NCBI RefSeq assembly: GCF_029227915.1
Contig: NC_079878.1
Coordinates: forward strand, 13,950,001-14,014,000
Reading direction: 5' to 3'
Source: Hydractinia symbiolongicarpus
Lineage: Eukaryota > Cnidaria > Hydrozoa > Anthoathecata > Hydractiniidae
DNA: 64,000 bases
Of this stretch, positions 1 through 51,494 are shown in pieces. The position numbers were made by a program, and so were the translations under genes. Positions within the stretch are counted from its first letter, which is position 1; each line of letters opens with the position of its first letter. The notes beneath the pieces are model-generated. The model was not told the origin of the DNA. It worked only from the letters and a program-made list of their open reading frames with translations, and searched no databases.

Positions 1-205
1 ATAGAAAAGCTTCGTTAGATCACATTTTAAAAATTTAAGAACAAAAAGCGGCAATAGATATGCTTTTTTAGATCGCATTTTAAAAGTTTAAAAACGACGA
101 ACGGCGATAGAAAGGCTTCGTTAGATTGCATTTTAAAAGCTCAAGAACGAAAAGCTGGGATAGAAATGCTTTTTTAGATCGCAATTTAGAAATTTAAGAA
201 CGAAG
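1..205. repeat. 53-bp tandem array, left duplicate
   Basis: Units start at 1, 54, 107 and 160, each opening with ATAGA; the first three are exactly 53 bp. Two variants alternate, one with GCTTCGTTAGAT and one with GCTTTTTTAGATCG, so the higher-order period is 106 bp. The array probably continues to the left of the window, because the right duplicate has further units before the equivalent position. Confidence 0.85.
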
Positions 206-868
206 TTTTTATTAAATATTTATCTTAAAAAACTTTTTTTTAGCGCAATGAAAAAAATAAATATTTCTGAGAATATATAAATAAAACTTTTTAGCGCGAC
301 AAGGAAAAACACTTGCAAAAAAACTTTTTTATTTTTTATGATTATAAATATCTAAACTTTTGAGCACAGTAAAAAGAGTGTTAATATTATTCTCGAATAT
401 TATAGTTGATATTTTGTGATTGTTAACACATTTAAACAATAACATGTTTTAAATTCGAACAAAAGTTTTTCGTATATATTATTGTTAACACACGCACCTA
501 TAGATAATAATAGAAACATGCAAAATATGTGTGATAACAATAGACACATAAAGTTTTTTTATTTAAACATGACATCGTTACACGTCATCATGAAATGCGT
601 GTGTACATGTAACATTACTACATTCAGGCGGTACTGTATGAAGGTCATAATGGCTACTCTAAAAATACCGACCTGTAATACCAGGAGAATTGTGCCATTA
701 ATAAGGTTTTTTTGATGACAGAAGTTTGCCACTATGACTCTCCAACATTGTGTAAATGGGGGAAGGAAGGGGATAAAAAACAGTAATTCTATATTTAATC
801 CCTTTTAGGTTTTCTCTCCTGACTGTGCAACACAGCCATATTATAGATTCATAACAGAGTAAACTCAC

Positions 869-990
869 TTTTGTTTAACTTCCTTTCTGAGTTCTGCTAT
901 CTTTCTCCTGGCATCAACTAATCCATCTTTTAAACTTTCTTTTAAATTCTCAACCTCGTCGTCTTCAAGATGGAACGCACCAGGAACCAT
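869..990 (-). pseudogene. Duplicate of MIPOL1-like coding exon 1
   Basis: This is an identical copy of the exon at 48740-48861. It has the start ATG (reverse strand, 988-990), 40 codons beginning MVPGAFHLEDDEVENL, and a GT donor next to 869. Any exon 2 would have to lie left of the window. Inside the window it is therefore an orphan first exon with its promoter side. It could start a second complete or chimaeric gene off the left edge, or be a dead fragment. Confidence 0.7.
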
Positions 991-1257
991 TTTGAAATTT
1001 CACCGATTACCCTGGTTGGTCGGGGAACAACGAGAAATAGCGTACGCCCCCCCCCCCCTCCCCTGTTGAAATAGCCCCATCCCTTTAAAAGTTCTTTTTG
1101 CATCTGGTAAATTGGTAAAACCTTAGAAAGTCATCTGATGAATTGGTAAAACCTTTAGTTCAAGGACCTTGTGTACTTTATCGGGTTCCCAAAGTTTTAG
1201 AAGGGCCACTGATTATAAAAAAGTGGGAATTAATCAATGAAGTCACCACATAAGAAA

Positions 1258-1611
1258 TGTGGCGCCGTAGATTAGTGGCTATAGCTCTCGTATTCCGTGT
1301 GGGAAACCGGGGTTCGATTCCTCTTGACGGCGATTCAACATGGGCGAGTGAATGTTACCATAGCCCCGGGTTAACCCAAGCCATGTGAGGGAAATTGGGA
1401 AGATGGCTTCATGTGTGGGCCGTTGGATGTTGCCGAGAATTGTCTAGTAGAGCGCGGCCCCTAATTGGGCCTGCGTAGCCCAAAATGAGCATTAAATACT
1501 CTAGAACTCTCCATCTAAGCCATGGCCCCTCCTGGAAATAATAGACAGGGTATATACCTCGATATTAGTGAGGCTAGCCATGTAAAATATGCACATCTAT
1601 CTATCTCTCAT
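1258..1611 (+). mobile_element. tRNA-derived SINE, copy 1
   Basis: The 5' end folds like a tRNA, with CGCCGT pairing to ACGGCG. It carries a perfect B box (GGTTCGATTCC, 1311-1321) and an A-box-like stretch near 1270. The body is about 280 bp and ends in an (ATCT)n tail. A 9-bp target duplication CATAAGAAA flanks it at 1249-1257 and 1612-1620, which defines the insertion exactly. A second independent copy lies at 11755-12104. Confidence 0.88.
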
Positions 1612-1633
1612 CATAAGAAACAAATTTAATTAC

Positions 1634-1666
1634 CGCAAATGTTGAATAAGTCATTCAACATTTGCG
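1634..1666. repeat. Perfect 14-bp inverted repeat, 5-nt loop
   Basis: The arms CGCAAATGTTGAAT and ATTCAACATTTGCG are separated by AAGTC. A related ATTCAACATT copy follows near 1681. The structure is repeated in the other duplicate at 49506-49538. It may be a folding remnant of a small mobile element; function is unknown. Confidence 0.7.
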
Positions 1667-1868
1667 TTAAATTAGTGGGATATTCAACATTCGAGTCACC
1701 ATGAGATGTAGTTGGTGGTTGACACAGTAAACGATCTTGGTGGGTACAAAGTTGTCACCATTGTCACCAAACGTACGCGTTTCATCCTCATATCAAAAAA
1801 CGCTATAGGCCCTGGGAGCGAGGTTGCGATACCGCCCCAATCAATAATTAATTGTACAAAAATCAGTT

Positions 1869-1930
1869 GTGTTTATATGGAATTTTTTTGTTCTGGAACA
1901 ATTTCGTCCCGTTTTCTTCCATATAAACAC
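1869..1930. repeat. 14-bp inverted repeat, 34-bp spacer
   Basis: GTGTTTATATGGAA at 1869-1882 is the exact reverse complement of TTCCATATAAACAC at 1917-1930. The surrounding 1740-2090 contains a GAGCGAGGTTGCG-like motif that also appears in variant form near 53830. This suggests a miniature inverted-repeat element. Confidence 0.5.
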
Positions 1931-3618
1931 ACCGTCTCGGAAAACGAACAAGATAACTTTGCATATTTCAATTTATGAAAAGAACACCCCGGGACAGTTT
2001 TTCCATAAAAAGTAGGACAAAAGTCGTTCCCGGCAAGCGTCCCGTCTCGGCAATCATGTTGTCCTGCCTCTTATATAAACAACCCCTTAGTTTTATGTTG
2101 TAAGGGAGAGGATCAAAGAAACAACACATTTCTTTACTGCGCATGCATTTCGGCAGTTAGAAATTATAAACAACTTACCACGTTAATTAAAGAAATTCGT
2201 TAAAAAAGAAATATTTGCCTAAAATTGGTGAAACACTTATTTAAAATAAAAGAATGTAAAAAAATATTAATTTCCGATCTTTTGTTCCACTAATAGCCGT
2301 TTACCCTGTGTCCTGCTTTTCTAAATACCAGAATGCGCACGCTACAAAAATTGGCATACTTTTGTTAACATTTGTAACAAACCTTCGTTTTTGAAAATAG
2401 CCTGCAGGTATCGTGATGGCTGTTCCATTGCCTTCTCTCCTATCGACCGAAATTTTTAAGGTACACTACTTTCTTTAGAGGATTTTTGATGTCAATTTTT
2501 ATCACGTTTGTAATATCTATTTCACAGAGACTTTCTTTAACATGGATACAGTTAAAAACTCATCAACAACCAAATATTCATGCAGCTGTGTTTATTTATA
2601 TTGGACATCCCTTTTACATCCCTTTTATGGGAAAATACTGTATATAATGAAATGTTTCTAATCCAGTTTTCTGATGTGAAAATACATTCAAGAAAAAAAA
2701 GACTACTGAAATAACTTTCTCCTGGAACACTTGATTATTTTAAAACTACATCGATACGGACGATCGATCGTATCTTCCACCATTTTTTAAGTAAACAAGT
2801 AATTTATCACAGCAAAGTTGAAAATGCAACAGCGAAGACTAAGCATACGTATGTTACTAATTATTCTTGCATAGAAAGGATTTTGTTAATTAAAATCATA
2901 GTTAATAGACAATTGGGTTTAATTGTTAATTGGACCCTATTGTCCCGATGTTAAGGGGAAAAGATAATCAAAGAGTTGATGTACACTCTTTAGGCTGTGT
3001 ATGACGTTAATCAACAAAAAAATCATCGCATCCTATCCCAAAATCTAGTTTTGTTCCACAGAAACGAAAAAACGAACACTGCGTCGTAAACGCATGAGTG
3101 AATAAACAATTTAAAGTATTGGACATAAAAAACCAAAAGTTTATAACTAAAAACCTTAACTTTTATTTTATGTTAGTTTATGTTATAGGTATACAGTCAA
3201 CAAGCAACAAGTCGAGCTTTTGTGTAAAACACAGCAACTTAGGCACAATTCGTCCTCAAAGCTTTTTTTCTCTTTTCTGACAATCTTACGGGGGGATTGT
3301 TAAAAAGAGAAAAATGACGTGGAGACGAGGTTGACTTTAAGCAGCAAAATTTGAGCCTCAGCCAAAATTTTGTGTTGCCTAAATTAAAAAAATGTACACT
3401 ATATCACGCATTTTCATCCCTATACATTGATGTCTACCTCTATCTTGCAATTTTAATTTAATTTGTTAAAAAACACTGCGTTATAAAGATGTAGGGTTTA
3501 TCCTGGAGGACGGATTTTAAACGCTGTTTCACCTGATGATACGGGGTTAAATTTGGAGGAGGAGAGGGGTGACGTTTCACGATAATTCAAATTGTGTCTT
3601 TTTCAAAGGGCATTAGGA

Positions 3619-3622
3619 GAGG
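3619..3622. repeat. Target-site duplication GAGG, left
   Basis: GAGG precedes the CACGC terminus and is repeated after the GCGTG terminus at 8978-8981. The duplicate locus holds a single GAGG at 51491-51494 with continuous flanks, so this is a true 4-bp target-site duplication. Confidence 0.93.
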
Positions 3623-3673
3623 CACGCTAGTTCTAGCGGTACGCAAATAGCGAATTTAATTATGCGCATGCGC
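3623..3673 (+). repeat. Transposon 5' terminus
   Basis: It begins CACGC. A 24-bp block rich in CGAATTTA and ATGCGCATGCGC occupies element positions 28-51. Twenty of its 24 bases match the inverted block at the 3' end, where it starts at position 17. Outside CACGC and this block the ends do not align well. Confidence 0.82.
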
Positions 3674-4077
3674 GAAAAATTGTTTTTTAAATATAGCGCC
3701 TCAGAGGCGAAAGCCCGATTCTTGGTCAGATTGCCTATCCCAAAATTGATGCTTTTTACGGCGATTTAACCAACAAACTAAGGAAATGTACTATTTTAAT
3801 TGAAGGAAGTGAGGCCAGGTTACGTAACTAAGCGAAAAAAACATCTTACTTGCTTTTGTTTTGAAGTTACGCGGTAAAAAAACAAAACGAAAGTAAACAC
3901 AAAAAATGACCTAGCTACATCATTAAATATCTCGACAACCAAAGTTTTTTTACCAAAGAGGTTTTTACAGCATTTAGTTCAGACCTTAAGCTCTTCAAAA
4001 AACTATGTTTGGAATGCATTTCACTTTTTTCCTAAAAATTTAAAGACTTGAAACAGACCCTACTTTTTGAAAAAAAT

Positions 4078-7000
4078 ATGGCCGCCACAAACCATGAAAA
4101 CATGTTGGCAAAACTTTGTAGAGTTTGTGGAGAATTTTTAACTAAAAGTAAAGGTATTGCAAAACAGAAAATGACATTGGAGAAGGAATTAGAACTACTT
4201 TTTGTTCATATCCAGGAGGATGTGGACAACATTCATCCCAAATATGTTTGCTTTCGGTGTTACAACACACTTAAAAATATTGAAAATAGGAATACAACAA
4301 CACAGTTGAAACCTAAAAATTGGTCTCCCCATACAGAAGTTTGCTCTGTATGTGAAAATGTTCAAGGTATGAAAAAAGGAGGCAGGCCATCAAAAAAGAA
4401 GAAAACAGGACGACCAAGTACTTTTAAGCCGATATGGTCAAGAAAAGCCTTAGAGGAAATTAGTGACAAAAATTTAAATGACATTATTCCACCCGTTGTC
4501 AGTCACCATGGCTTAGAAAAAAATCCACATTACAAGTTTTGTTTGTGCATGCTTTGTGGAAATCTTCTGAGACAACCTTTAATGGTTATCACATGTGAAC
4601 ATGCATTTTGTAAAGAATGCATCCTTATATATCTTGAAGGAAGTTTTCAAGATGAAAGTGAATGCCCTAAGTGCAAACGCGATGACATCATCACTCTTGT
4701 CAACCAATCAAATTTAAAACCAAGTTTGCACCGAAACCACATGGTAAATAGTTTACAAGTTGACTGTGATAACAAATGTGGAGAGAAATTTACATTGGAT
4801 AAATTACATGAGCTTAAATTACACAATATATCGTGCAACACATCCACAAGTTCAAATACAAGTGCAAATTATTCAATAAGAGATGTATTTTTATTGGACG
4901 AGTCATCTCCTGTTCCAAGAGAAATAGAGGATGCCACCTTGCATGTTTTAAAACATAAAATGAAACAATCAACTGATATAAATAACAGCATAGAATTTAA
5001 AAGTGGAGGACCTAGGGTATGTATCTCAGTTAATGGAAAATGCATATATTTACAAAAATAACTGATTTACATATCCAAATTTTTTTACATTATATATATA
5101 TACATATATATCCTTGATATTTTAAAAATTAAATAAAATTAAACTAATGATTTCAAACAAATTTATTTTAGCCCTACATGTTCACCTCAACACCGAAACC
5201 GGTTAAAAATAGTAATGAAGTTTGCAAGCGGACCATAGAAAAAAGGAACAAGTTTTTAAAAAACCAATTACTTTTTTCTTCTGGTGGAAATGAAAGTGGG
5301 TTCAGCGTACAAACTGGCAAATTAGTCAAGAGTCTGAAGGAAAATGAGAGAGTAGAAATACTCAAGAGAGCCAATATAACAACAAAGAGTATAACTCCAG
5401 AGGAATTTGTAGCAATGAAGGCAGACTTGAGTATTCCCTGGTCAAAATTAAAAACAATGTCAAGGTATGGCTGAAAATTGAGTACTAATACATAAATAAT
5501 TATATATATGAAAATTCACAAAAAAGACAGAATAGACATGTTACACCTTTTTAAATAAGACTTTTAAAATCATGAGACTCAAATGAAAAGTATGATTCTT
5601 ATGAAAAAGGTGTTATACATCTACCTGTTTATATATTTATCATAATAGCATTTATGCAAAATTAATACCTTAAGGAAAGAAAGTGTGTCAGCAGTGTTGG
5701 TGGATTAGTGCTCATCAAATTTATTTTATTTAGCATCTGTCAAATTAAATTCTTACCAAAAAAGAAAACTGCAAACTTTATTTTCCTAAGGTATATAGTA
5801 TGCACATTTAAAAAAATAATAATATTCTGCATATAGATGGTTATCAACCTTTAACATATCCATACCATCACAGAGAAAACAAAGAAAAGTGGCTACGGAA
5901 TGGACTGGTGATCAATTGCGTTCAGAACTAGCTCCATTCTCATTCGAAGTTAAAGGGCACAAAGGCAAATTTGAAATAAGAAGTGCAGCATGGGTTTATG
6001 TTGAAAGCCTGGAATCCCAAGTCAAAACAATGTTTCACTGTCTAAGACAGTAGGTTTTTGTGTTTACTTACTCTTAGGAAAAAGATACATATAGTTAAAA
6101 AAAACTTAAAAAATAAATAAAAATAAAAATTTAAGACAGATGCAATTCTACTTCTATTTAGGAATGGACTATTAACTGATTACCCCTTCATGAATAATGA
6201 AATACATGTAAAAATAGGAGGAGATCATGGCGGTGGTTCATTCAAGCTTTCATTTCAAATATGTAACACAAAGAATCCAAACAGCAAGGTAAAAGAAAGT
6301 CCTAGATAACTTTTACTACCTTTTAGAAAAAAAACATTATTTTCCTATGATTTTTATAGTCAAACACTGTGGTCTTCAGTATCTTTGAGGCCAAGGATAG
6401 AAGATCAAATTTGAAAATTGGGACAAGTCGATTTACAGAACAAATTGATAGACTACAGTCCAGCAAATTTGGGTTGGTATTTATCACATTTTTGTTAGAG
6501 TTAACACTTCTATGTTTAAAATTTATACCTATATTCTACATTTAGTGACCAGAGAGTAAGAGTATTTCTTTCGGGTGATTACGAATTTTTAAGCAGTGCA
6601 TATGGCATAACCGGAGCTAACGGTATGTAAAAATAGTACAAAATATAAAAAAAGTACAAAATATAAAATGTATTAGTCAAAATAAAAAATCACATTTTAT
6701 TTTATTTTCATTTAAAATATTCAGGGAGACACCCATGTTTGTATTGCATAGCAACAAAAGAAGAAATACAGAAACCTGTGGATATGCGTGGAAAATTTCC
6801 TGTAAGAACCCTGGAAACTTTGAAGGAGAATTTAGCAAAATTTAGAGACTCTGGTGGCAATTTGAAGAATGCAAAATTCAACTACAATGTAATTGATGAC
6901 CCACTTTTTAACATTCCAATTGACCAGGTAAGTAAAATTCATGCTATACTATACTGTATGTATATTTTTGATCACTGTTGCCTCCAAAACTATTGTTTTA

Positions 7001-8394
7001 AAATACATTTTAGTCATAGTTATATATATTAGTGATAATAAAGTAATATTTAATCAGTCAAGTTTTATTACTCAATTTTAGGCATCTTTACCTGGACTAC
7101 ACATTTCCTTGGGATGTTTTTTAAAATTTTTTACAATGTTTGAAGATAAATGCCACAGTGTGGACATCGCGTTAGCAACCAAGATGGCAAACGCTAATCA
7201 GAAAACCCAAGAAGAGGAATTTAACAAGTTTATTGCTTTAACATCAGAAATAGACTTGTTAGAAAAAAATATTGAAGACTGTGATGAAAAGATCCAATTG
7301 ATTAATGACACCATCATTGCAGCTGTAATGCGAGACCCAAACAATGAGGATAAAATTAAAAACATGTACCAACTAAGAATTGAACACTTTGAAGCAAAAA
7401 AGATTGAAAAGGTATAAATATTAAATTTGAAGACAAATTTTTTCAAAACAAATGCAAAAAAATATTCTCAATTTAATTCAATATTTTAGACCAACCGTAT
7501 TGAGGAGTTAAAAGAAGCAAACAATTTTAAAAAAACTGATGGTCCTTGTGTGCAAGCAGTTGATGCTATCCTCAACAAGCTCAACATTAAACGCCAAGCT
7601 TATTATTGTGGTAGCTTTATTGGAAATCATGTAAATAAAATGCTTGAGGTGAAAAAATAATGTTCTATATTATATATTTTTTAATAAGCAACTTACCATT
7701 AACGAACTAGGGCTTGAATAGTAATTAATAATATTTGCTTATTATTAAAAAAGTGCATTAACAGAAACTGTAATCAACAACATTTGATATTTAGCCTAAC
7801 AACTTTATCCAAATGTGCAATATACTTCCAATCACTGTCACTAAACTTGGATACAATGGATCAGACATACATGCAGATGCTATTTTACATGCTGAAAACT
7901 TTAAACAGCTGTTTTTACATTATTCGAAATGTCACAAAACATTAAATACACGTGAAGTTATGAACCAAGACAAAATTGAAAACTTTGGTAGGTATATTAT
8001 ATAAACACTAATAATTGGTCACATTTTTGCACAAATTACACACATATATAAAAGCCATAACATGTAAACATTTGTTTTAGAACTAAATGTAAAAGAACTG
8101 ATGGTGTTTCTTCGAGATATATTTCCCCTTCAATCGATCACTCCAAAGTTACATCTACTTGAGGATCATGCCGTAAACTTTGTTTCTGCTTGGGGTACAG
8201 GTTTAGGGTTCTATGGAGAACAAGGTGCAGAAAGCATCCATGCTGAATTCAATGGCATTGCACGGCTATACCATGCAGTAAAACCGGACACAAATCGTCT
8301 ACTTTTAATGACAAAGGAGCATTATTTGCGATGTAACCCCGTAGGACAAGGGATGGTTCCTGAAATAAAAAAGAGAAAACTCTCTACTAGCTAG
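4078..8394 (+). CDS. DDE transposase with RAG1-like zinc-finger N-terminus (11 exons)
   Basis: Exons: 4078-5016, 5172-5464, 5837-6049, 6162-6288, 6360-6472, 6546-6622, 6725-6927, 7082-7411, 7490-7648, 7795-7987, 8081-8394. They total 2,961 nt (986 residues) and every junction keeps frame. Residues 14-82 carry CxxC pairs (CRVC 14-17, CFRC 58-61, CSVC 79-82) spaced as in the N-terminal zinc region of RAG1, including DVDNIHP and SPHTEVC. A C3HC4 RING follows at about 147-189, then a C/H finger at 220-243. The catalytic half has GGDHGGGS (D503), SGDYEFL (D573), HPCLYC (C592, C595) and GEQGAESIH (E929 or E933). A Lys/Glu-rich, likely coiled-coil segment lies between D573 and the Glu. The start is the ATG at 4078 in good context. 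It would cut and paste the element in the nucleus. The family assignment is by recognition; splice sites are predicted. Confidence 0.87.
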
Positions 8395-8536
8395 CTCTAG
8401 CTGATGTTTATAGAGCATCCCTTCACAATGTGTATATCATGTATATATAATGTAAATATTTTTATTGGATGTTCATTGAATAGCTAGGCTGACTCACCGT
8501 GGTGTGGAAGGTGCCTTTTTCCTTCGACTTTGTGAT

Positions 8537-8542
8537 AATAAA
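8537..8542 (+). terminator. Poly(A) signal of the transposase gene
   Basis: A canonical AATAAA lies about 145 bp after the transposase stop codon, inside the element. It is consistent with a self-contained transcription unit. Confidence 0.5.
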
Positions 8543-8937
8543 AACACCACAAAAAAAAGTGAAATGGTTTTTAATTTACTAAACTTACCATCAGGATGGT
8601 GTTGATAAGCTAAATCTAAGAGTCTTTCCTACAGAAAACTTTAGTTAAAAAGATATTACAATTTTACTACACCCACTACCAATTTTAATGTTTTGGAAGG
8701 GGACGAAGTCCCACGTCAAATACTGGAGAAAACAATAAACTTTTTTATAACTTACTTATTCCTCCGGCTACATCGCTCCTTCCTCTTCAGAAAAATTCTC
8801 AATGTAGAAAACCGCGCGTACTATAAACTATTTAAAAACTTAAAATCAACGAAGCGTTGCAATCTATTGTCTTTCCCTTGCTCGGCGTAGCTATGGTTAC
8901 CATTTTTAAAAAGTTTAGTTTTCACGAGCGTGATTCA

Positions 8938-8977
8938 GCGCATGCACACAAATAAATTCGTCCCGTAAATATGCGTG
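8938..8977 (-). repeat. Transposon 3' terminus
   Basis: Read inward on the minus strand it begins CACGC and places the shared internal block at positions 17-40. The matching block in the 5' end starts at 28. The two ends therefore differ by 11 bp in the distance from terminus to motif, about one helical turn. Confidence 0.8.
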
Positions 8978-8981
8978 GAGG
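8978..8981. repeat. Target-site duplication GAGG, right
   Basis: This is the partner of 3619-3622. The sequence continues GTGTAG, exactly as at 51495 in the uninserted duplicate. Confidence 0.93.
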
Positions 8982-9450
8982 GTGTAGAAATTTTTCCGTG
9001 CAATTCACACCAAAAACGCGGGGTTAATCATGCGATAAAATCCACCACGTTTTGTAATTATGCAATAATTTTGTCTTAAAATATATGCTATACCTTTAAA
9101 CGACACTTGCACAGGAACAGTGGCTGGAGCAGCTTGAGCATCCAAGTGTAAGTTAAGTGGTCAGGTATCAAATAATAATTCCAATGTGATAATAATACAA
9201 CACCCATTTTATACTTGGTGGCCTATGAGTTACAAGTTTTTTTCTAACCACAAGTGCAACACAGTTTTAACTAGTACAACTAGTTTTAACTAGTTTGTTC
9301 CAAACAGAATGCATGATTTTGAGTAATGAGTCATGAGTAAAAACTAGTTAAATTAAAAAAACTCTGACCATGAAGAGAAGTGAAATTATTTGTTATGTAA
9401 GATTTTGAATATTTACAATTTCATATATTTTAGGACTGAATAAATTGGTA

Positions 9451-13030: not shown

Positions 13031-14460
13031 GCTACAGGCTTTATCGACTAGTTCTTTATATAATAAGAAAATACACATGCATACAAATCATACATGTGCT
13101 AAACCACTTTAAGAACTATTAGTTTAGTTTTAGTTTTGAAGTCTCCCACAACTTTAAAAAAAGTTAATCATCACAATGAAGGAGGGTGTTACAAATTTTC
13201 TGTATGAATTTTAAAAATAAAGTGGACTATAAGATATGCAGTCTTATCATTAAGAAAAAGCTTGTAATAGGGGAAAGAAATAGAAATCTTTCTAATATAG
13301 AAAGTATTTGTGTGTGTATAATTTAACTACATTGTTCTAATGTTAAATTTTAAGCCAACTTCCCACAAAAACACAAGTTGGATTCATATGGAAGAGCTTA
13401 AAAAGCTTTATAAATCTTTTAATTTTTTGAAAAATCTTGATCTGTTATCAAAATTTTTGGACTTAAAATTTTTGCAAATTTGCTTCTTAATGCATGATGT
13501 CATATAATTGGTATACACAGTACCACTTGAATGTAACATTACATGTACACCAGTTTTACGACATCACATAATGACATCATGTCTACATACTTAATTGCTT
13601 TTCATTGCTATTGCTGTGTGAGAACCATAGATGTAATATAGCAATTTCTGACACTGCATACAGCAATTTTTAAGCTTTGTAGGGTTGTTTTCTTATCATC
13701 TTAGAACAAAATATAGTGGTGTTTAACCTTCAAAGGAACTTTTTTTCATTATTAAAGAATAAAATATGGTGATTTTTATGTTCATTTTCTTGTTGTTATT
13801 GCACAAAGTTATGCTATTTAAGCTTTATATGATTTTTTTTTGTATTATCTAAAATCAATATTTATATACAGTGATTTTATGCTTTATATGATTGTTTCTT
13901 GTCATTTAAAGACGAAATATGGGGATTCTTCAGCTTCTTAGTTTTTTTTTTGTTATTTTAAAGCGAAATACTCATTTTAAGCACCTAAATTCGTTTCCTC
14001 ATTATTTGAAGCTTTGAAGGGTCGTTAGGAAATACAACAATATTAAAGCTTCGTATACAACACATTTTAATAGGACTGTTTGTGTGTTATACACATGTTA
14101 TAGATTATTTTCTTTTGTTGATCCCTTGATGCTAATAATAAATAAATATAACAAACAATAGGCTTCACAAAGTTTACTTGAGCTAATTATGGTTTTTGTC
14201 TGAGACATGAACTCTATGTTTTTTTCCACATCAAGGATAGCTCATGTATTTAACAATAGGTTAAGAATAACAACGAATGTTCTGACACTACCAAAAACTT
14301 GTGTGAAGGTGATTAACTATCATATAAAGTTACATAAGCAGTACTGTAAATGAGGTGCTGTTTTGAGGTGCTGTTTAAAGAAGCCATTGCATTGTAGATT
14401 TTTTAATAAAACAATTTGTGTTATAAGGTCAGATATTATCTTTTGTAGCAAGTTATCAAA
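13031..14460. other. Noncoding upstream of the peptidase gene
   Basis: AT-rich with long T runs and no recognisable coding sequence. It probably includes the promoter and 5' UTR of the gene starting at 14461. I cannot place a TATA box or transcription start with confidence. Confidence 0.4.
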
Positions 14461-17400
14461 ATGAGTAATACCAGAAGAACAAAATTAACAAGTGATTCGG
14501 ATGACAGTACTGAAGATCTGATTATTAAAGATGACCCATCACCTCATGGGATGTTAACTACTGAGCCCAGCCTTAACTATGTTGTTGAAGTTCCTAATTA
14601 TACAAGCAAAAAAAAGTGCCAGTCAGTAAACAAAACTCTTTTTTTAGTTGTACTTTTGTTGTTATTGGTTTGCACGATATTTATCTATCTTTATTTTCAT
14701 GAACGCCACATGAACTCACACATTACGAACAAGTATTGCACCTCCGGAGGGTGTGTCGAATCAGCAGCATTTATCCAATCATCAATTAAAGAAACTGTAA
14801 ATCCTTGCAAAGATTTTTATCAATTTGCATGTGGAGGGTGGTTATCAAAAAATCCAATACCTGACAATAAAATAAGGTGGTCAATTGACTCTGTTCTTCA
14901 TAATAAAAATATGCTAATTCAACGAAGTATTCTAGAGAATGCTTCAGTGCAACAGAATATACTGGGAAGTGTTGCAGAACATAACACATACAAATTGTAC
15001 CAAAGTTGTATGAATATGACACGTATTAACAGAATTGGCACACAACCATTAACTAAGTTGTTAAAAGAAGCAAGACTGAAAATAGATCAATCTGGAGATA
15101 AAAGAAGCAAAATACGAACATTGATGCATAACGTATACAATTCTGCAAGCATAACGTCATTTTTTGATGTCTCAGTGGGGATTGATGATAAAAACTCAAA
15201 AGTGTATGTATTAAAGGTAAAGTGCTTTATTCAAATTCAAATTCTTTATTCAAATTGTTTTTAAACAAATTCTGTGAGAAACTGATAATATCTTGAGAAG
15301 GTGAGAGTTACACAAGCTACATATAGAAAAGTTCCTTTCATATAGACTTTTTGAAACCTATACTTGAAACCTAGGCTTTTTAGCTGTGTATGTTCTTAAC
15401 TTTTATTCTTATTTCGGAAAGAATCAAAAGGAGCGCTATTCTGAAATTTGGATATCTAACTTTATGTTGACTTTTTAGTTTTCTCAAGCTGGCTTGAGTC
15501 TTCCAATGTTTCGATACAAGAACAGCTCTGATATTGTTATCAAGGCATATAAAGCATATTTGATTCAATTATACTCAAGACTTAACCAGGAGTTGACGAC
15601 AGATAAAACAACAACCATTGTTAATGATGTTTTAACTTTCGAAAGACAGTTATATAAGGTAATTTAAGTAAATATTTTTAACACATCACGGACAAGATAA
15701 AAAAGTCAACAGAATTTTTTAATTTACTTTTTTAGTTAAATTTCTGATAAAAAACAGCAATAGTTGATTACATTTCTTAATCTGTAAAGATTTTTTTTTC
15801 ATATTGGAAGTTTGTCATTCCTTGAATTCAAAAAATAGAAAAAACTGAAAAAAAGTTAACACTATTTTGTATGTGTTAGTGTGTTAGAAAATATTTTTTG
15901 TGTTTGAGTATTGCCTATTTTTTTAGCTCATTTGATTCACTTCAACATTTATATTGATTCTCATTGATTTTAGATCTTTGTGCCTATGGAGGAGAGGACT
16001 ACCATCGACAAGACATACCACCGTTCAACATTAGCTAATCTGGATAAAATGGTTCCTATGGTATGTTTTATGTTACAGACTGTTTGTAGCGTCCTGAACA
16101 CCAGTCTATGATTGGTGCTGAAAGTGGGCTCTTATACTAAAATTTCTAAATTTTGGATAATGACATATAATAATACAAAGTTTCTTTGACAGGCATACTT
16201 ATTTTTAACTGCCTATGTTACGGCATGATGTCATTGCATTTAGACTGACATCAATTCATTAAATAAGAATAGTGAAACCATTGCATTGCATTTTTAATTA
16301 TAAGGCTAAAAAAGTTGAAAACAGTTGGAAATAACTGACATCATCTTATTCAGTACCAACTGGGACCAAAAAGGACCAATTTGCTAATGCTAGGTTAATC
16401 CACTCCATTCAAAACAAACAGGTTGATGACAGAATCAAAAAAAATAAACTCCAATATCTCTGTAACTATTCATCAGAAGATACATCATCCTATACATTTT
16501 CTTGGTCAGCGTTTTATGCTCTATATGATGAAGGCAACAGATATTCTGGAAAAAAATACAAAACCAGTTTAACACCACTTATTTATTTAAATACCATTTT
16601 TTGCTGCCTAAAGTTTAATGTTCACATACTTTCAACCTAATATTTAAATAGGCATAAGAGTTTTATTATTGCATCTTGTTTTATATTTTTTTTTTATTAT
16701 AATTTGTAATAATGTTAAAGAAGAAATTTATTAACAGGTAATAACATTTAAAAAAAACACTAAAAAACTAGCTACTTTCTTATCATCATCATCATCATTC
16801 TCGGCTTAACGTCCGTTTTCCATTAGGTTGGACGGGGTGTATTATTGACCCTCTTCCAGTCTGATCTAGACTGTGTTAGATCTAAACTCAACTTCCTCTG
16901 TATAAAGTCTGTCCTTATAATCTCCTGCCAAGTCTTTCTCGGTCTGCCTCTGAGCTTTGCCCCAGGAACTATCAAGTCTCTACACTTTCTTACCCAATTA
17001 TCCTCCTCCATTCTTTCCAAGTGCCCCAGCCAGTTTAATCTTCTTATCTGGATAACATCTTTAATTCTACGGAGACTTAGCCTGCTTCTTAGCTCATTTG
17101 AACTCTTTCTGTCTCTCAGACTGGCGTTACACATCCACCTAACCATTCTCATATCATTCCTTTCTAAACGGTCAAGATCTTCCTGCTTCACTGCCCATGT
17201 CTCACTACCGTACAACATAACACTTCTTACACAGGCCTCATACAACCTACCTTTTACCTCAATTGACAGGACTCTGCTAGTCAACAAAGGAAGTAACTCT
17301 CTGAACTTTTTCCAAGCAGAACCTATCCTGCAAGTAACACTTCTTCCAACACCCCCTTCACTGCCCAACATATCACCTAAGTAACAGAAGCTCTCAACTA

Positions 17401-20400
17401 TCTCTAACAAGCCACTGTTATACATCATTGAAACTGGAAATACTTCATTCTCTATAATCTCACCTTTGCAACGCTTACATATTAACTGAATGTCAGCTCT
17501 TAACCTTCCACCAATACTACTGCACTTCTTATGTACCCAATGCTTGCAAGCAAAGCTTGAGTTACTACCAACCCCTTTCCTGCTTGGCTGCAATGCTACT
17601 AATCATGACTTTAGACTTTGCTGTGTTCACCCTTAGCCCTTTCTCTTCTAGTCCTTTCTTCCACTTCTCAATCTTTTCAACTAATTCTTCCATCGACTCT
17701 GCTATGAGAACTAAATCACCTGCATACAATAACTCCCATGGACAACTTGTTCTGAACTCCACCGACAGCGCTTTTAAGACTAGAATAAACAACAAAGGAC
17801 TAAGTACTGAACCCTGATGTACACCAACATTTACACTAAATTCATCACTAAGTGAATCGTTAATCCTGACACGACTTCTAGCATTGCTGTACATAGACTG
17901 TACCATCGTAACTAGCCACTCACCCCCACCTAATTTTCTCATAGCCCACCAAATAACTTTACGTGGCACTCTATCAAAAGCTTTCTCTAAATCTACAAAG
18001 ACAAAATAAAGATTCTGTCTCTTTCCTAAATACTTTTCATGAACCTGTCTAACTAAAAATATTGCATCTGTAGCGCCACACCCTGGAACAAAACCAAATT
18101 GCATCTTATCTATATCAATTCTTTCTCTAAGTAGCTTATCAATCACTCTTTCAATAACTTTCATTACTTGATCAACCAACTTCAAACCTCTATAGTTACC
18201 TCTTTCTAATGCATCACCCTTGTCCTTGAAACAATTCACTATTACACTCGACTGCCACTCACTCGGAATAGTACCATTCTTTATAATCTGATTAGCAAGA
18301 CTTGTAATAAGCTCAACTCCAATATATCCAGATGCTTTTACCATCTCTGCAGCAATACCTTCCCTTCTTCTACAAATCTGTTTCTCTCTGCTTCTGATTT
18401 TGCCTTATACACTGCTGTACGAGCACGACGCTTAGCTTCTAAGTAAATATTTTTACTATCACCTGACTTTCACTCTTTCCAAAGTTTCCTCTTTTCCTTT
18501 ATACACTGGTCAACCTCATTATTCCACCACCAGGTCTGTCATGTCTAGCTGGTCCTTTCGTCCAACCACAGGTATCATCAGAAGCTTCTAGAAGACAATT
18601 CTTCAAAGTAGTCCAAGTACTTTCAACATTGTCACTATCACACTAACTAACTGCTGAACTTTTGCACTAAATTGTCTTGCTACAATCTCTTCCTTCATCT
18701 TCCAGATTTTGCGACGGGGCCTGTACTTTCCCTTGGCTTCTTTAACACTCTTCAAGATAATATCACAAACCAGAAACCTATGCTGGGAAACACACTCTTC
18801 CCCCCATATAACTTTCACGTTCTTAACGACTTTCTTGTCTGGCTTTCTAACTAAGAAGTAATCTATCTGTGTCTTACAGCCAATCATATGTTATCAACCT
18901 ACTCTGTCTCTTACTGAATGATGTGTTGCAAACCACCATGTTTGTTGCCACTCCAAACTCAAGCAATATCTTGTGTTCTATTTAAAGCTGAGGGAGTACG
19001 TAAATTATAAAAACTCGCATTTCACACACAAATTTTACTAGTGCTAGGCTCTGCAAACATTACTTACTGAGTTTATCTTTATGTTTGGGAAAAAATAATT
19101 TATCAGAATCAAACTTATTTAAAAAATTTCAAGCCTTGTAAGAAGATTTGTAGCAGCCCTAGAAATTAAAAAATTAGGCTTTTGTAACATATTTTACACA
19201 AGTTTTGTTAGACATGGACTGGCATTACGTAATCGACAAGACAGAGCCTAAAGTAGGGTTAGATTTTAACCCTGTTTTACATTCAAAGAAATCTTAAAAA
19301 TGTCTAGATTTTACTTGCGTTGCCATTAATACAAAAAAAATTATGTAATGTTTCTTTATAGGTAGATTGGACAGCGTTTATGAAATTCATATACAAAGAT
19401 ACATCTATAAAAATTAACTCAAGTGAAGTTATTCTTATTCCAACATTGAAGTATTTTCAAAAGCTTCAAGGCGTGTTAGAAAACACATCATTCAGGTAAA
19501 ATACTAAAATTAGGTTATTTTAAAAAGGTATCAATATGCCAATAATTTTTCTTGTGGACCATGTGAAAATAATATCATAACAATTTGAAGTCCTGCATAG
19601 ATAATCAGAAATTTATTGTCTGATATTTTAAATGTAACGCATCATTAATGACACACATTAAGTCATACTCACAGAAGGCATATAATATAATCTTTTTAAG
19701 AACAGGAACATTTTTGACAGTTGCAAAAATATTTAGAAAATAATCAAGTAAGATAAAGAAGAAGGATTAAAGAAAACATTTTTGGAAATCTTCATAAAAA
19801 ATGACAACAAAGTAAGTGTGGTTATGGATGTGCAGAAACAAACATAAAATTCCATACTTTTCATTTCCCTTGTGTCTTTCACTTCTCACTAACTAGTGAA
19901 ATTCTAATGTCTTTCACCTCAAATAACTTTACTTCTTTGGAAACATAACTTTAAATCATATGCTTATCCATTGATTAAAATCGAATTTCACATGTGTCTT
20001 CTGCACCTCTCTTTATACAACTTGCAATTTCTCTACAGCGATAACAGTGATATTCACTTTTCTTATACTTGACAACCTTTGATTTCATTTAACTTAATAT
20101 TGTGTATCATGTTAAAGCTTACATTTTAACTGTAGATATTGCAAATCCACAGAATGAGTTTTCAACTCTTATTGCTTTAATCTTTTGTCAGTCAGTCAGT
20201 CAATTTTAAAAGCCTAGTTTGGTTTTTCCAGCCATATTAATGCTTACTTGTAAAGCACATGGAAAATTCTCTAGTAGGTGAACAGTTTAAAGCAGTTTGA
20301 TCATGTACTCTACTACTTTCCCATAACAACGTTATCAGTTAGTTACAAATTTATCCCACAGGAATCTGGCTTTTCTACAATAAATAATTTTGACCATGTA

Positions 20401-25976: not shown

Positions 25977-26678
25977 TTAACGACCTAATCCTATAACGTC
26001 CGTCATAGCTTTTCCATTTTCGATATATTTTTGTATGTTCTTTTTATTTTTGGACCATTCAGCGTCGTATTTAGTATAAGGAGGAGCCGTCCTTGTGTAT
26101 ATACCAATATATGTCTTAATAAATGTGATGTACCATTTCCAAAAAGCCTCGTGTTGAGAAATTCCAACTTCTCTTCCAGACCAAAACATTAAACGCATCC
26201 ATATTCTAGAGTCGTCAAGTTTAAAACGTTGGCCTCTCTTTTCATCTTCCCGTTTGTCGCAGTTCCACGCGCGAGAGTGCGATACGTGTCTCATGCCCTC
26301 TCGTCCTGAATCTGTCCAAACATCCCCTTCCCCGCCCATCTTTTCGATGATCCAGTCGCCTAATCGTTGACCGTGCGCCGCTGCTCCGTCTGTATCGAAC
26401 ATAAACTTCGACAACGTTTCGTCTTCAAACGCATGGGCGTAAAATCTAGTTGTCATTTGGCGTATTTTATCACCGCCCCCAACATCTTTTAAAAGATCAG
26501 CTGTATACTTCGAATTTTGTAATTTTTCATGTGGTAAGGATTTTGACGGGAAAGATTTCACTTCTTGCTTACCAGGTAGTGTTTTATGAGTTGTTTTGTG
26601 AAATGGACAAGATGTAAACTTCTCGAACTCTATTTGCTTACTAACATTTTCAATTGGACATTTCAAATGATGCGTCAT
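25977..26678 (-). CDS. Truncated (2/2) haemoglobin-like protein, intact copy
   Basis: A single-exon gene of 233 residues. After a ~60-residue N-terminal extension comes a bacterial-type truncated globin core: VGGGDKIRQMTTRFYAHAFED, AHGQRLGDWIIEKMGG, SGREGMRHVSHSRAWN and FWKWYITFI. His residues in the AHGQR and RHVSH stretches are candidate haem ligands. Such globins bind O2 or NO in the cytosol; the role here is unknown. I chose the ATG at 26676-26678 because it is shared with the right copy; an in-frame ATG exists seven codons upstream (26699). The gene is the left half of a head-to-head inverted pair about 96% identical in protein. The intronless coding region in an intron-rich neighbourhood may hint at horizontal or retro-origin, which is not proven. 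Confidence 0.8.
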   Translation of the reverse strand: MTHHLKCPIENVSKQIEFEKFTSCPFHKTTHKTLPGKQEVKSFPSKSLPHEKLQNSKYTADLLKDVGGGDKIRQMTTRFYAHAFEDETLSKFMFDTDGAAAHGQRLGDWIIEKMGGEGDVWTDSGREGMRHVSHSRAWNCDKREDEKRGQRFKLDDSRIWMRLMFWSGREVGISQHEAFWKWYITFIKTYIGIYTRTAPPYTKYDAEWSKNKKNIQKYIENGKAMTDVIGLGR

Positions 26679-26836
26679 GTTTAACAAAACTTTAAACAAC
26701 TCGTGAAACTATATTTCTTGATGTTTTTATTGTGTATATATTATAAGAATATACTTTGCCAAGCAGTACTAAGATAATTTCAGTACTACAGTTTTTTGTT
26801 TTGAAAAATGAATTATAGATTTTAATTTTCTGTTCA

Positions 26837-27238: not shown

Positions 27239-27687
27239 TAAACAGAAAATTAGAATCTATAATTCACTCAACATCTTTTCGAAAGAAAAAGTTTTAGTAC
27301 TGAAATTATCTTAGTACTTGGCAAAGTATATTTTTAAATATACGCAATAAAAAAATCCAGTATTGTTTCTCGAGTTTTTCAAAGTTTTGCCGAAACACAA
27401 AGGTAGGTTGATTTTTTGGATCATAAAAAAGAGAAAAATTCTCTACCTAAATAATATGCTTGTAACTATTAAAAAATGATGAAAAAAAAATGATGCTGTT
27501 CGCTTTTTTCTTTGGTATTTCATCTTTTAAGCAATAAATTTAGACGTACAGCCCCTTTCCCGCATTTTTCAGAACTAAATGTGTAACGTAGCTATATACA
27601 TCTTAAAGTGCAGCAGCCTCTTTCATCCATTGTTTTTGTTTTTTACATAAACTTACAACTTATGTGCTTAGCTAGGTTTTGTTAAAC

Positions 27688-28389
27688 ATGGCGCATCATT
27701 TGGAATGTCCAATTGAAAATGTTAGTAAGCAAATAGAGTTCGAGAAGTTTACATCTTGTCCATTTCACAAAACAACTCATAAAACACTACCTGGTAAGCA
27801 AGAAGTGAAATCTTTCCCTACACAATCCTTACCACATGAAAAATTACAAAATTCGAAGTTTACAGCTGATCTTTTAAAAGATGTTGGGGGCGGTGATAAA
27901 ATACGCCAAATGACAACTAGATTTTACGCCCATGCGTTTGAAGACGAAACGTTGTCGAAGTTTATGTTCGATACAGACGGAGCAGCGGCGCACGGTCAAC
28001 GATTAGCCGACTGGATCATCGAAAAGATGGGCGGGGAAGGGGATGTTTACACAGATTCAGGACGAGAGGGCATGAGACACGTATCGCACTCTCGCGCGTG
28101 AAACTGCGACAAACGGGAAGATGAAAAGAGAGGCCAACGTTTTAAACTTGACGACTCTAGAATATGGATGCGTTTAATGTTTTGGTCTGGAAGAGAAGTT
28201 GGACTTTCTCAACACGAAGCCTTTTGGAAATGGTACATCACATTCATAAAGACATATATTGGTATATACACAAGGGCGGCTCCTCCTTATACTAAATACG
28301 ACGCTGAATGGTCTAAAAATAAAAAGAACATACAAAAATATATCGAAAATGGAAAAGCTATGACGGACGTTATAGGATTAGGTCGTTAA
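27688..28389 (+). pseudogene. Truncated haemoglobin-like copy with one nonsense codon
   Basis: It has the same 234-codon span as the left copy, with no indel. The Trp after SRA in RHVSHSRAW is TGA here (28099-28101) instead of TGG. The frame continues open to 28389. About eight further residues differ (for example T to A, G to A, W to Y, I to L). The break falls inside the globin core, so a product would be truncated after 137 residues. It may be a young pseudogene, a segregating allele or a sequencing error. Confidence 0.8.
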
Positions 28390-36039: not shown

Positions 36040-39000
36040 CTACATCCGTCCCAAATATGTCGTGTCGAAAGATAAACAAATTATGATGGGTAACACAATT
36101 GTCAATATCGCCATAAGTGTACATAAAAGTTTATCAAAAAATCTTGCTATGCGCAACCATTGTTCGTTGTAACTATTTTCAGTAGTAGAAATTTCCTTCT
36201 TCGTCGGTTCTTCTTTTGACGTGATGCCTTTCATTTCGATGCTATCTAATTCACCCTCCTCAAAACCAGGATTAATTTTACCCTCCATCTTAGATGTTTT
36301 TTTGTATACATTCCCATTTTTGTCTGGAAATTTTGACTTTCTGCAAATGTAGTTTAAAAACATCTGTGGAGGAGAAGTCATTCTTTGTGAAAATAACACG
36401 GTCATGGCGGAAAACGCCATTCCAAGAGACAACAAAGAAAATAAAGTGATAAAACAAACGCCAAGAACGGATGCTTTATCGGATTTTTCGGGTAACTTTT
36501 CTGACAACATCACAAGGTAGAGCGTGACGTTCAGAAGTATTGTTATGCCGAATCCCATCCGTTCTCCAAGATTAGGCGGTAGATGGAATGTGATGAGGAA
36601 CAACAGAAGTTGTGTGATGAGAGGAAAAATCAAATATAAGAAATAATACAAGGGAAGTCTGTACAAATGGATTTCATAGGTGATCACTGAAAATGGTTTT
36701 TTGCAGCAGGAAAACATCTGATCTTCTTCGTAGGGTATAGTTTTGTCAATATTCCATTCACCGTTTATGATATGAAAGGTACTACCTAAAGGTAAAATCA
36801 TCATTTTAAGTGATACAATTTAAGTTAAGTTATTTGTTGTTGTTGGTAAGATTATCCATGACAGAAGATTAGAAAAGACATCCAAAAACAATCATAACAT
36901 ATCAAAACCAGAAAATGAAAATTGGAAATATTTTTAGAGTTCTTCAAAATTATGAGAAATGCCAGTTGTCCCTTCTTCAAGGTAAAAGACTAATGTATCC
37001 TTTTGGTAAGTTACCCGATATTCCATCCTTTGGTTTTGACCAAAACTTTAAATTCATTTGATGAACGTTGTATGAAAATGAACCGAACGTCATATTGCAA
37101 ATCTAACGAGAAAAAAGTTAGTAAGAATAAAATTTTGTTATACTGAGTTTTTCACAAGTGTACATGATAGAGTTTGGCATTAAATTTTTCTTGATAAAAT
37201 TTTTTCTTACTTGCTTATCTACAGGAAACCACGTGACGTTCACGTGACATGAAGCTTTCCATTTGACAGGTGCAACCCAAATCACATTCCCATCATCCTC
37301 AATGTTGACTTTTGTTCGATATAAATCTGTGTGTGTATATATTTCGTCTTCAGCACTATTAGAAAATTATGAATAAAGTGAAGCCCAGATTATTTTCCAT
37401 GTTGAATGATTGCGTCTGGTGGCTTAGCGACGTAATAGTTGTTGACATTTTTGTGGAGAATTTCAGTATCGAATCAATATGTTAATCTGTTAGATCAAAA
37501 CACAAAAACTCTAGCTGACCATTTTACCCGTCCTTAATTCAGTGTTCCTGATAAATATCGTGATAGTCCGCTCAAACGCGCCATTTTTTATCCTTTAACT
37601 CGCGTTACGCACTGTTTTTTTATAAGAATCCTATCATTTGTTTTGAGCTTCATGACTCTCGGAAAATCAATTGGTTAGGTATGATAAGAATGATTGGTTG
37701 CGCTCTAATTACTTTCACAATCTCAGTTTCTTCGAGAGCAATTTTGTAAAAATGATAATTTCAGATTATATTCGAATTTTACACATTTGATTTTTAACGT
37801 CTGATTATCGAACCTGGTCACCCTTCTTAAAATTTTAAAAATTAAGTTTTATTTAAAGGATTTTTGAAAAAGTTAGGTCAGGTTTTTAGATTCTCTACAA
37901 TAACAACAATTTTTTTGAATTCAAATGACGATTCTTTGCCATATTCATCCCGCCTAAGTGGATCTTTTCCGAGCCTTATCGATTATTGACATCGATAGCA
38001 AAAAAACATCAGGAACAAAACCGCCACAGCAATGAAAGTTATACAAGATAAAATTATTACCGATTGTGGACATGCTTAAAAACTATCAGAAAAAAAAAAA
38101 CGTCACAAATATTCATGACTAGCTAGCCAGTTCTAGAAAACAGAATTGGAAAGATAATTCACAGAAGCATAGACTAGTTAAGATATTGTTTTTGATACTG
38201 ACTCATTATATAGCATAACATCTGGTGTCCAGATCAATGTATTACTCATTGTCACTCTGGCAGTTTCATTCATAAGCGAACTGTTCCATGCCAGATTTTT
38301 GTCTCTCCATCTCTAAAAAAAATGATGCAACAATAGGATTAAACCTCGATCTATAATATAGCTTGCTCGCTTTACAGACATCGTTCAACATGCTAGACAG
38401 TTTGATCAATTCCATTGGCTAATAACTTTAAGTTTTTCTTTCCCAACCCGAGTGAAAGTTAAAACAATTTAACCTTTTTTTACGATCAGGACCAAAGAAA
38501 TAACAAAATGACCAATGAAATTTGAGTACTATTGTTCTTCTTCGTTTTGGTTTGCTCTAGAATCAACATTCGCTCAGAATGAGATTCTGTACAGAAATGT
38601 GATTTTATGGATCAAAAAATGTGTGTTATGTTTTTTTAAATCCTACTTCAAGACAACAAGGAAATCATTTCGTAATTCTTCTATTTAAAGTTCTGTTCTA
38701 TTTTGAAACTTTAAGAAAAAAAAACTGTAAGGATTTCAACAATTCAAGCCATTTCTTAATGATCATCACTCAGTGTATTTTTCCTTCAAATCGAAATATT
38801 CGCAATGAAGGATTTATTGTTCGTAATGACAAAAAGAAAAACTACATACCAACATGGTAAATGTGTTTAGTGTCATAACTTGATTTTTGATATCCTGCAA
38901 AAGAATAAACAGTCCTTAAAAACGTCATAAAGGATAAGCCATTAACCAGTAACACAAAACATAAGAGATAAAGAATGACAAAAAAGCAAAAAAAAACAAA

Positions 39001-48200: not shown

Positions 48201-48861
48201 TATTTTTTATGATTATAAATATCTAAACTTTTGAGCACAGTAAAAAGAGTGTTAATATTATTCTCGAATATTATAGTTGATATTTTGTGATTGTTAACAC
48301 ATTTAAACAATAACATGTTTTAAATTCGAACAAAAGTTTTTCGTATATATTATTGTTAACACACGCACCTATAGATAATAATAGAAACATGCAAAATATG
48401 TGTGATAACAATAGACACATAAAGTTTTTTTATTTAAACATGACATCGTTACACGTCATCATGAAATGCGTGTGTACATGTAACATTACTACATTCAGGC
48501 GGTACTGTATGAAGGTCATAATGGCTACTCTAAAAATACCGACCTGTAATACCAGGAGAATTGTGCCATTAATAAGGTTTTTTTGATGACAGAAGTTTGC
48601 CACTATGACTCTCCAACATTGTGTAAATGGGGGAAGGAAGGGGATAAAAAACAGTAATTCTATATTTAATCCCTTTTAGGTTTTCTCTCCTGACTGTGCA
48701 ACACAGCCATATTATAGATTCATAACAGAGTAAACTCACTTTTGTTTAACTTCCTTTCTGAGTTCTGCTATCTTTCTCCTGGCATCAACTAATCCATCTT
48801 TTAAACTTTCTTTTAAATTCTCAACCTCGTCGTCTTCAAGATGGAACGCACCAGGAACCAT
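42242..48861 (-). CDS. MIPOL1: MIPOL1-like coiled-coil protein (10 exons)
   Basis: Exons in transcript order: 48861-48740, 46523-46331, 45734-45629, 45034-44908, 44812-44746, 44418-44248, 43781-43680, 43570-43476, 42849-42619, 42308-42242. They give 1,281 nt (426 residues) with every phase consistent; human MIPOL1 is of similar length. Nearly the whole protein is heptad-like coiled coil. Stretches recalling MIPOL1 include VDKIYTAQKERDNAMM, SLSNEATLREQFTTTMDEFE, and the C-terminus LERLVDVLRKR just before the stop. The molecular role of the family is poorly defined. Exon 1 lies inside the right segmental duplicate, and intron 1 carries a 53-bp tandem array. The third coding exon ends in a duplicated splice-donor region. 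The identification is by recognition, not by alignment. Confidence 0.85.
43277..43475 (-). repeat. Short interspersed repeat (CTGTCTGTC / CCGTGGATT type), copy 2
   Basis: Minus orientation, in a MIPOL1-like intron. On that strand it opens ATTACCAGTACCCGAATTC, has CTGTCTGTTTCCCTGCGAGAAAA, and ends CCGTGGATTTTCCCCCGGG. It abuts the splice donor at 43474-43475. It is a longer, diverged relative of 30262-30372. Confidence 0.55.
45601..45650 (-). repeat. Tandem 24-bp duplication of a splice donor
   Basis: CAGCTCCTTTGCCACTTACT is present twice in tandem (plus strand), so the exon end GGCAAAGGAGCTG/GTAAGT occurs twice. The first donor met by the transcript (45627-45628) keeps phase with the next exon. 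The second (45604-45605) would add codons with an in-frame TAA. Confidence 0.8.
47790..48076. repeat. 53-bp tandem array, right duplicate
   Basis: Same alternating two-variant array as at 1-205, with at least one further unit (47819-47871) and a partial one before it. Located in intron 1 of the MIPOL1-like gene. Confidence 0.85.
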
Positions 48862-49129
48862 TTTGAAATTTCACCGATTACCCTGGTTGGTCGGGGAACA
48901 ACGAGAAATAGCGTACGCCCCCCCCCCCCCTCCCCTGTTGAAATAGCCCCATCCCTTTAAAAGTTCTTTTTGCATCTGGTAAATTGGTAAAACCTTAGAA
49001 AGTCATCTGATGAATTGGTAAAACCTTTAGTTCAAGGACCTTGTGTACTTTATCGGGTTCCCAAAGTTTTAGAAGGGCCACTGATTATAAAAAAGTGGGA
49101 ATTAATCAATGAAGTCACCACATAAGAAA

Positions 49130-51490: not shown

Positions 51491-51494
51491 GAGG
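51491..51494. other. Empty transposon target site
   Basis: A single GAGG with uninterrupted flanks ATTAGGA and GTGTAG. This is the uninserted state of the site occupied at 3623-8977. Confidence 0.9.

Follow-up and report, generated by a model that had tools for sequence, protein, structure and literature searches.

RESULTS

A 5,355-bp transposon with a single predicted gene

The stretch analyzed here, referred to as the window, comprises 64,000 nucleotides of the genome of the hydrozoan Hydractinia symbiolongicarpus (contig C4, 13950001 to 14014000) and carries a complete Chapaev-type DNA transposon of 5,355 bp on the plus strand at window positions 3623 to 8977. The element is bracketed by a 4-bp target site duplication, GAGG, at 3619 to 3622 and again at 8978 to 8981. 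Its 5′ terminal inverted repeat region (3623 to 3673, plus strand) consists of an outer CACGC, a spacer, and an inner arm at 3651 to 3673, and its 3′ counterpart (8938 to 8977, minus strand) terminates in GCGTG; the inner arm is 87% complementary to positions 8938 to 8960. Both termini and the duplication lie exactly where the original prediction, made from the letters of the window, had placed them. Rfam and tRNA scans of the window returned no matches.

Within the element, 11 exons on the plus strand join in phase into 986 codons followed by a stop, with GT/AG at all 10 introns, confirming the predicted frame. Exon 1 (4078 to 5016; residues 1 to 313) encodes the zinc ligands of the Chapa (RAG1-N-like) region, a RING, and then C230, C234, H249, and C253. 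It is followed by exon 2 (5172 to 5464), exon 3 (5837 to 6049), and exon 4 (6162 to 6288), the last of which contains GGDHGG with D503, the putative first catalytic Asp. An intron after residue 524 (phase 0) precedes exon 5 (6360 to 6472). Exon 6 (6546 to 6622) encodes GDYEF with D573, the putative second catalytic Asp; exon 7 (6725 to 6927) encodes the pair C592-x2-C595, or C(2)C; and exon 8 (7082 to 7411) encodes L661-H662. Exon 9 (7490 to 7648) includes base 7607, a T in the window copy (Cys805), and exon 10 (7795 to 7987) leads to exon 11 (8081 to 8394), which encodes H907-x4-H912 and GEQGAES and ends in the stop codon. The catalytic Glu is probably E933, with E929 a less likely candidate; both lie in GEQGAES. 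Every sequence motif originally cited for the transposase was present. We re-derived the exon chain with a spliced aligner written for this analysis, for which the same 986-residue protein served as the template. No frame of at least 95 codons was found on either strand of the element outside the transposase gene and its antisense, which leaves no room for a RAG2-like gene.

The N-terminal half resembles RAG1 beyond its RING

The N-terminal half of the predicted protein had been likened to the N terminus of RAG1. Zinc ligands C14, C17, H53, C58, C61, H85, C89, and C92, RING ligands C157, C160, C173, H175, C178, C181, C196, and C199, and the residues C230, C234, H249, and C253 that follow the RING were invariant in family A, to which the window element belongs, and in two sibling families of the same genome, C and E (described below). 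The order of these ligands equals that of the elements C1, C2, C3, and ZDD listed for RAG1 (PMC7204232). In Pfam, RAG1_imp_bd (PF12560) was placed at residues 42 to 108 (E = 2.5e-9) and a C3HC4 RING at residues 157 to 199 (E = 1.1e-7), both above the cut-off and in the order, Chapa and then RING, of the RING-bearing Chapaev elements. NCBIfam gave no match for the window protein; one sibling family matched rad18 weakly (E = 0.0011).

When the RING was excluded, residues 1 to 139 gave four matches in the PDB, three of which were RAG1 (E = 1.9e-5 for the best, 21wb_A; 5.2e-4 for each of the others), and the next was a ribosomal protein at an E value of 0.27. RAG1 chains were the only matches below an E value of 0.001. 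With a profile built from families A, C, and E, RAG1 chains took the top two ranks (E = 3e-13 and 3.3e-13), above every RING protein; the profile was colinear with RAG1, its positions 35 to 248 aligning to RAG1 residues 152 to 379. Because both residues 1 to 139 and the three-family profile match RAG1, the similarity is not confined to a generic RING; together with the RAG1_imp_bd match, these results bear out the RAG1-like N terminus.

The C-terminal half carries a Chapaev core

Pfam placed DUF1280 (PF06918) at residues 379 to 558 (E = 1.3e-16; 61.3 bits versus a cut-off of 25). DUF1280 denotes Chapaev transposases and has been placed in one clade with RAG1 (PMC3985635). Hallmarks given for Chapaev are a 3- to 4-bp duplication, CAC/GTG ends, and the motifs C(2)C, LH, and H(4)H (PMC4079192). 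The window element has 5′-CAC...GTG-3′ termini (CACGC...GCGTG), a 4-bp duplication in all six near-complete copies (see below), and the motif residues D503, D573, C592/C595, L661-H662, H907/H912, and E933, which, like E929, were invariant in families A, C, and E. The DUF1280 match and these motifs agree with the Chapaev/CMC-like DDE (Asp-Asp-Glu) core that was predicted, and, judged by its sequence, the core is that of Chapaev.

Additional features connect this core to that of RAG1. D573 precedes C592 by 19 residues, C592 and C595 form C(2)C, and H907 and H912 form H(4)H. In RAG1, the corresponding residues are D708, C727, C730, H937, H942, and E962, the first three spacings of which equal those of the window protein. 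The pattern D, D, C(2)C, H(4)H, E is common to Chapaev, Transib, and RAG1 (PMC12730594). The claim that the core is unlike that of RAG1 and Transib therefore stood only in part: a core-only profile reached no RAG1 chain up to an E value of 10, but the shared pattern is present and the published clade unites DUF1280 with RAG1. The Pfam scan of the window protein returned no RAG1 core family. PF12940, the Pfam RAG1 core, had 0 matches in the host genome but also in all 14 control genomes, so that this search carries no weight. Kinship with the RAG1 core rests on motifs and the literature. The original prediction also described a RAG1 module joined to a different catalytic domain, which implies a swap; no such swap is needed, because PMC4411706 argues for a common ancestor in which module and core were already combined.

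The N terminus colinear with RAG1 152 to 379, including the zinc motifs, RING, and zinc finger, and the order D, D, C(2)C, H(4)H, E could also be read as those of a RAG-like transposon (RAGL, Transib, or ProtoRAG), i.e., a member of the RAG1 lineage proper. However, the duplications of the window family are 4 bp, compared to 5 bp for Transib (PMC4411706), neither Pfam nor the PDB yielded a sequence match of the core to that of RAG1, and the element has one gene and no room for the RAG2-like partner found in RAGL. The length of the duplication and the core contradict this reading, which we consider highly improbable.

Near-identical copies and an empty site point to recent mobility

The original prediction suggested recent mobility and called for a search for further copies. 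A DNA search of the host genome (481 Mb, 76 contigs), the counts from which are lower bounds, gave at least 25 matches to the element, of which at least 5 cover query bases 1 to 5355 (99 to 100%) and the rest are partial. All five full-length copies have perfect duplications (GAGG, TTTC, GCGT, CATG, and GCTG, on the strand as fetched), and a sixth copy, on contig C8, which a later insertion has divided in two, is flanked by ACAG on either side. A perfect 4-bp target duplication was therefore present in six of six near-complete copies. Relative to the window copy, loci L001 to L004 have 0 to 2 substitutions in 5,355 bp (L002, 1; L003, 2; L004, 1, plus 20 gap columns in introns); with base 7607 set aside, L002 and L004 differ by 0 substitutions. 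The remaining copies are more divergent (L005, 28 substitutions and 27 gap columns; sixth copy, 21 substitutions and 113 gap columns in the first 5,192 bases). The coding frame is open in five of the six (L001 to L004 and the sixth copy); in L005, exon 9 has lost its first 15 bases, together with the acceptor of intron 8.

The window also contains the insertion region without the element. When the flanks of the window copy were joined (150 + 150 bases, with the duplication once), they matched C4:14001345-14001644 (window 51345 to 51644) at 100% over 300 bases, uninterrupted by the element. This match belongs to a duplicate of the insertion region (47872 to 51954, plus strand) in which GAGG occurs singly, at 51491 to 51494. 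Window 1 to 3622 and 47872 to 51494 differ by 1 mismatch and 1 gap, and window 8978 to 9450 is 96% identical to 51491 to 51954. The duplicated stretch exceeds the portion seen in the window, since identity is still 100% over the 1,500 bases to the left of it; to the right of the empty site, homology ends at a C run, beyond which the sequence is unrelated. The window contains both a filled and an empty site, whether the two arose by segmental duplication, at a distance of 47.9 kb, or the assembler retained a second haplotype. If the empty site were a second haplotype placed in tandem by the assembler, the insertion would be heterozygous in the sequenced animal. The near identity over 3.6 kb and the further 1,500 bases at 100% are in line with this possibility; the right arm is more divergent (96%) and then breaks at the C run and unrelated sequence. 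We give the haplotype reading somewhat less than an even chance. Precise excision from one copy would be a less simple explanation of the empty site. The near-identical copies and the empty site bear out recent mobility.

Past the C run, where homology to the filled site ends, lies a reverse-transcriptase-like open frame of 348 codons (window 51948 to 52991), perhaps a retroelement inserted into the empty copy. Further insertions and rearrangements were seen among the copies of the element. The sixth copy (L013/L014; G000:C8:28575296-28630980) carries, 3′ of the stop codon, a 55.7-kb insert that is either a single giant element or a nested pile of elements; its ends form the inverted repeat GGGAAGCACTTCATGGAAGGATCCAT... 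and are accompanied by an 8-bp duplication, AGAAAACC. At L018 (G000:C4:25363305-25363990), element bases 5084 to 5335 adjoin bases 1 to 59, an internally deleted form that is possibly nonautonomous. The L018 fragment is abutted by the same GGGAAGCACTTC end.

Classification of the element and points against it

Taken together, these data lead us to conclude with high confidence that the window element belongs to the Chapaev superfamily (DDE, CMC group), within the subgroup that carries Chapa (RAG1-N-like) and RING, and that it is an autonomous cut-and-paste transposon that moved recently. It has every Chapaev feature that was tested and neither the TWA duplications of Chapaev3 nor the 5-bp duplications and RAG1-type core of Transib and RAGL. 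An open 11-exon gene with conserved zinc ligands might also be expected of a nonmobile host gene, such as a domesticated Chapaev transposase or a RAG1-like recombinase. However, a host gene would not account for the terminal repeats, the 4-bp duplications at unrelated places in six of six near-complete copies, or the empty site. The dispersed copies and the empty site contradict the host-gene reading, which we regard as having almost no chance of being correct.

Several observations weigh against our classification. The splicing of the 986-residue gene is a model, and the gene models of the sibling families were templated on the window protein. AlphaFold modeling of exon 1 alone gave a mean predicted local distance difference test (pLDDT) score of 36.7. 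A plain PDB search with exon 1 ranked RING2/BMI1 (E = 1.1e-8), BRCA1, and many other RING proteins above RAG1 (21wb_A; E = 2.5e-4); because generic RING proteins outrank RAG1, that search is insufficient for a RAG1 claim. The core-only profile retrieved 22 PDB matches up to an E value of 10, none of them RAG1, Transib, or another DDE enzyme, and the best was an unrelated phosphodiesterase (E = 0.09). Finally, the window copy is not clearly functional, as Cys805 may impair its transposase.

The window copy has a private substitution at residue 805

The gene had been described as free of any lesion. This is correct for the reading frame but not for the protein, since the window copy has a private missense change: base 7607 is T (Cys805) in the window copy only and G (Gly) in the five other near-complete copies. 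The surrounding motif reads QAYHG[KQ]SF, with Y-H-G, in all five sibling families. This conservation in copies and siblings is consistent with the idea that the element was recently mobile but that the window copy lacks a working transposase and depends on its sister copies as a passenger, or is on the way to doing so. On the other hand, the frame and splice sites of the window copy are intact, and a single change of conservative size could be tolerated. We judge the passenger reading to be only slightly short of an even bet.

At least six families of RAG1-headed Chapaev elements share the genome

A protein search of the host genome returned at least 110 matches, with 46 of 653 first candidates scored, and revealed at least six families (A to F) of RAG1-headed Chapaev elements. 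One locus of each of families B to F was modeled, with the window protein (family A) as the template. Open frames without a stop were obtained for families C (L049; 971 residues; 44% identity to A), E (L051; 968 residues; 43%), and F (L067; 964 residues; 36%); the locus of family D (L052; 42%) has four stops, and that of family B (L066) is 38% identical to A. Families B and F are 50% identical to each other. In an unrooted tree of the cores of the six families, B and F grouped together (1.000), A grouped with B and F (0.990), and D grouped with E (0.943). Of the 10 introns of A, 9 have a counterpart of identical residue position and phase in C, 9 in E, 7 in D, and 5 in F; none of the gene models of C, D, E, or F showed the intron after residue 524. 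DUF1280, RAG1_imp_bd, and C3HC4 RING were all three also detected in siblings C and E.

Candidate ends were found for family E (586 to 5593 of L051, with a TTTA duplication and 6-bp identical ends), along with three weaker candidates. The search of one locus per family recovered the ends of A but no ends with a 4-bp duplication in the stretches examined for B, C, D, and F. For family B, the two ends of a single copy, read from L047 and L066, gave a TAAG duplication.

PF12560 alone occurred at 60 places in the host genome, all above the cut-off, and at 0 places in 14 control genomes. Of these rows, 21 with an identical score and range were taken as family F, and one was read. Several single PF12560 places, with frames of 230 to 350 codons (e.g., C13:23152905, C3:33682376, and C3:23442619), lie outside all families read. 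DUF1280 and RAG1 domains have been reported as enriched in Hydra (PMC7642931). In viral contigs, a single-protein search gave 2 stretches and a search with alignment A1 gave 58, none of which was confirmed; alignment A1 gave 76 stretches in genome contigs, none confirmed as relatives; and an exon 1 search in phages found no relatives. This absence of relatives in viral, contig, and phage searches is as expected for an animal element.

Family B lacks the RING

Family B is represented by at least 15 copies among the matches listed. In all 11 fetched B loci, the match to the window protein jumps from residues 10 to 113 directly to residues 269 to 315. Exon 1 of B locus L038 is uninterrupted; it encodes the first two zinc pairs but neither a third pair nor the RING nor the finger after it. 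Ten of the 11 loci have at most 3 differences from L038 over 2,915 positions compared without gaps; the 559 differences of L046 were taken as an indel shift. The 5′ flanks of the ten compared B loci differ, starting at one CACGGGTG boundary. In Pfam, family B matched DUF1280 (E = 1.3e-15) and RAG1_imp_bd only below the cut-off (E = 0.0035), with no RING, whereas DUF1280, RAG1_imp_bd, and RING were all present in family F.

Because B sits beside F and every other family has the RING, the simplest reading of these sequences would be that the RING was lost in B. Given that the RING-less family has at least 15 copies, this reading implies that an element can spread without the RING, unless B was helped in trans. 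Nemerteans and Aurelia are known to have RAGL proteins that lack this domain (PMC7204232). We tentatively propose, at somewhat less than even odds, that this genome holds a living collection of RAG1-headed Chapaev families, of which A appears to have been recently mobile, as do B and F judging by their copy numbers, and that the role of the RAG1 N-terminal module can be read from the comparison of B with F.

Other features of the window

Window positions 25977 to 26690 and 27676 to 28389 are inverted copies of each other (97.6% identity over 714 bases) and contain frames that appear globin-like by eye (243 codons on one side; 141 + 95 codons with an in-frame stop on the other). Also by eye, 14449 to 15261 resembles the start of a neprilysin-like peptidase, 16826 to 18404 a reverse transcriptase of the long interspersed nuclear element (LINE) type, and 36043 to 36819 a piece of a nicotinic-receptor-like channel. 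All three look like animal genes, perhaps cnidarian ones.

DISCUSSION

The features described above suggest how the element may move. The gene would be transcribed and spliced into a single 986-residue protein, which would recognize the ends of the element. Its RNase-H-like core, for which conserved motifs point to D503, D573, and E933 as the catalytic residues, would then cut at the CAC/GTG ends, and insertion by this protein with a 4-bp stagger would give rise to the 4-bp target duplications, which, like the empty site, were observed. In RAG1, the RING and zinc finger serve in dimerization and in self-regulation of the ubiquitin-ligase type. By analogy, the RING and flanking zinc finger of the window protein most likely have these same functions.

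Kapitonov and Jurka reportedly described RING-bearing Chapaev subgroups in Repbase Reports in 2007. Compared by description, those subgroups likewise have Chapa and then RING, a DUF1280 core, CAC/GTG ends, and a 4-bp duplication, and the window family differs in having its own intron after residue 524. According to PMC4411706, two Chapaev subgroups have Chapa followed by RING, as in RAG1; the same paper derives RAG1 from an ancestor with both. N-RAG-TP of Aplysia californica is a mobile element that consists entirely of RAG1-N-like sequence (PMC8355894); by that description it is likewise a RAG1 N-terminal-like mobile element, but in the window element a full Chapaev core follows. Chapaev3 belongs to the same superfamily and has CAC/GTG ends but makes 3-bp TWA duplications (PMC4079192), whereas the window family has 4 bp in six of six copies and no TWA pattern.

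The architecture of Chapa, RING, and Chapaev core is already published (PMC4411706, citing Repbase reports of 2007 to 2008), and the window element is a further family of a known kind. What makes it valuable is that its copies are so recent and that families with and without the module can be compared in nature, rather than that it is a new kind of system: the open, near-identical copies, the empty site, and the module-less sibling are material with which the role of the module in transposition can be tested. Of all parts of the V(D)J recombinase RAG1, the N terminus has the least settled origin and use. If our proposal about families B and F is true, the RAG1-type RING would be a tuning device of transposition, not a part of the machine, and would have been kept by RAG1 as such.

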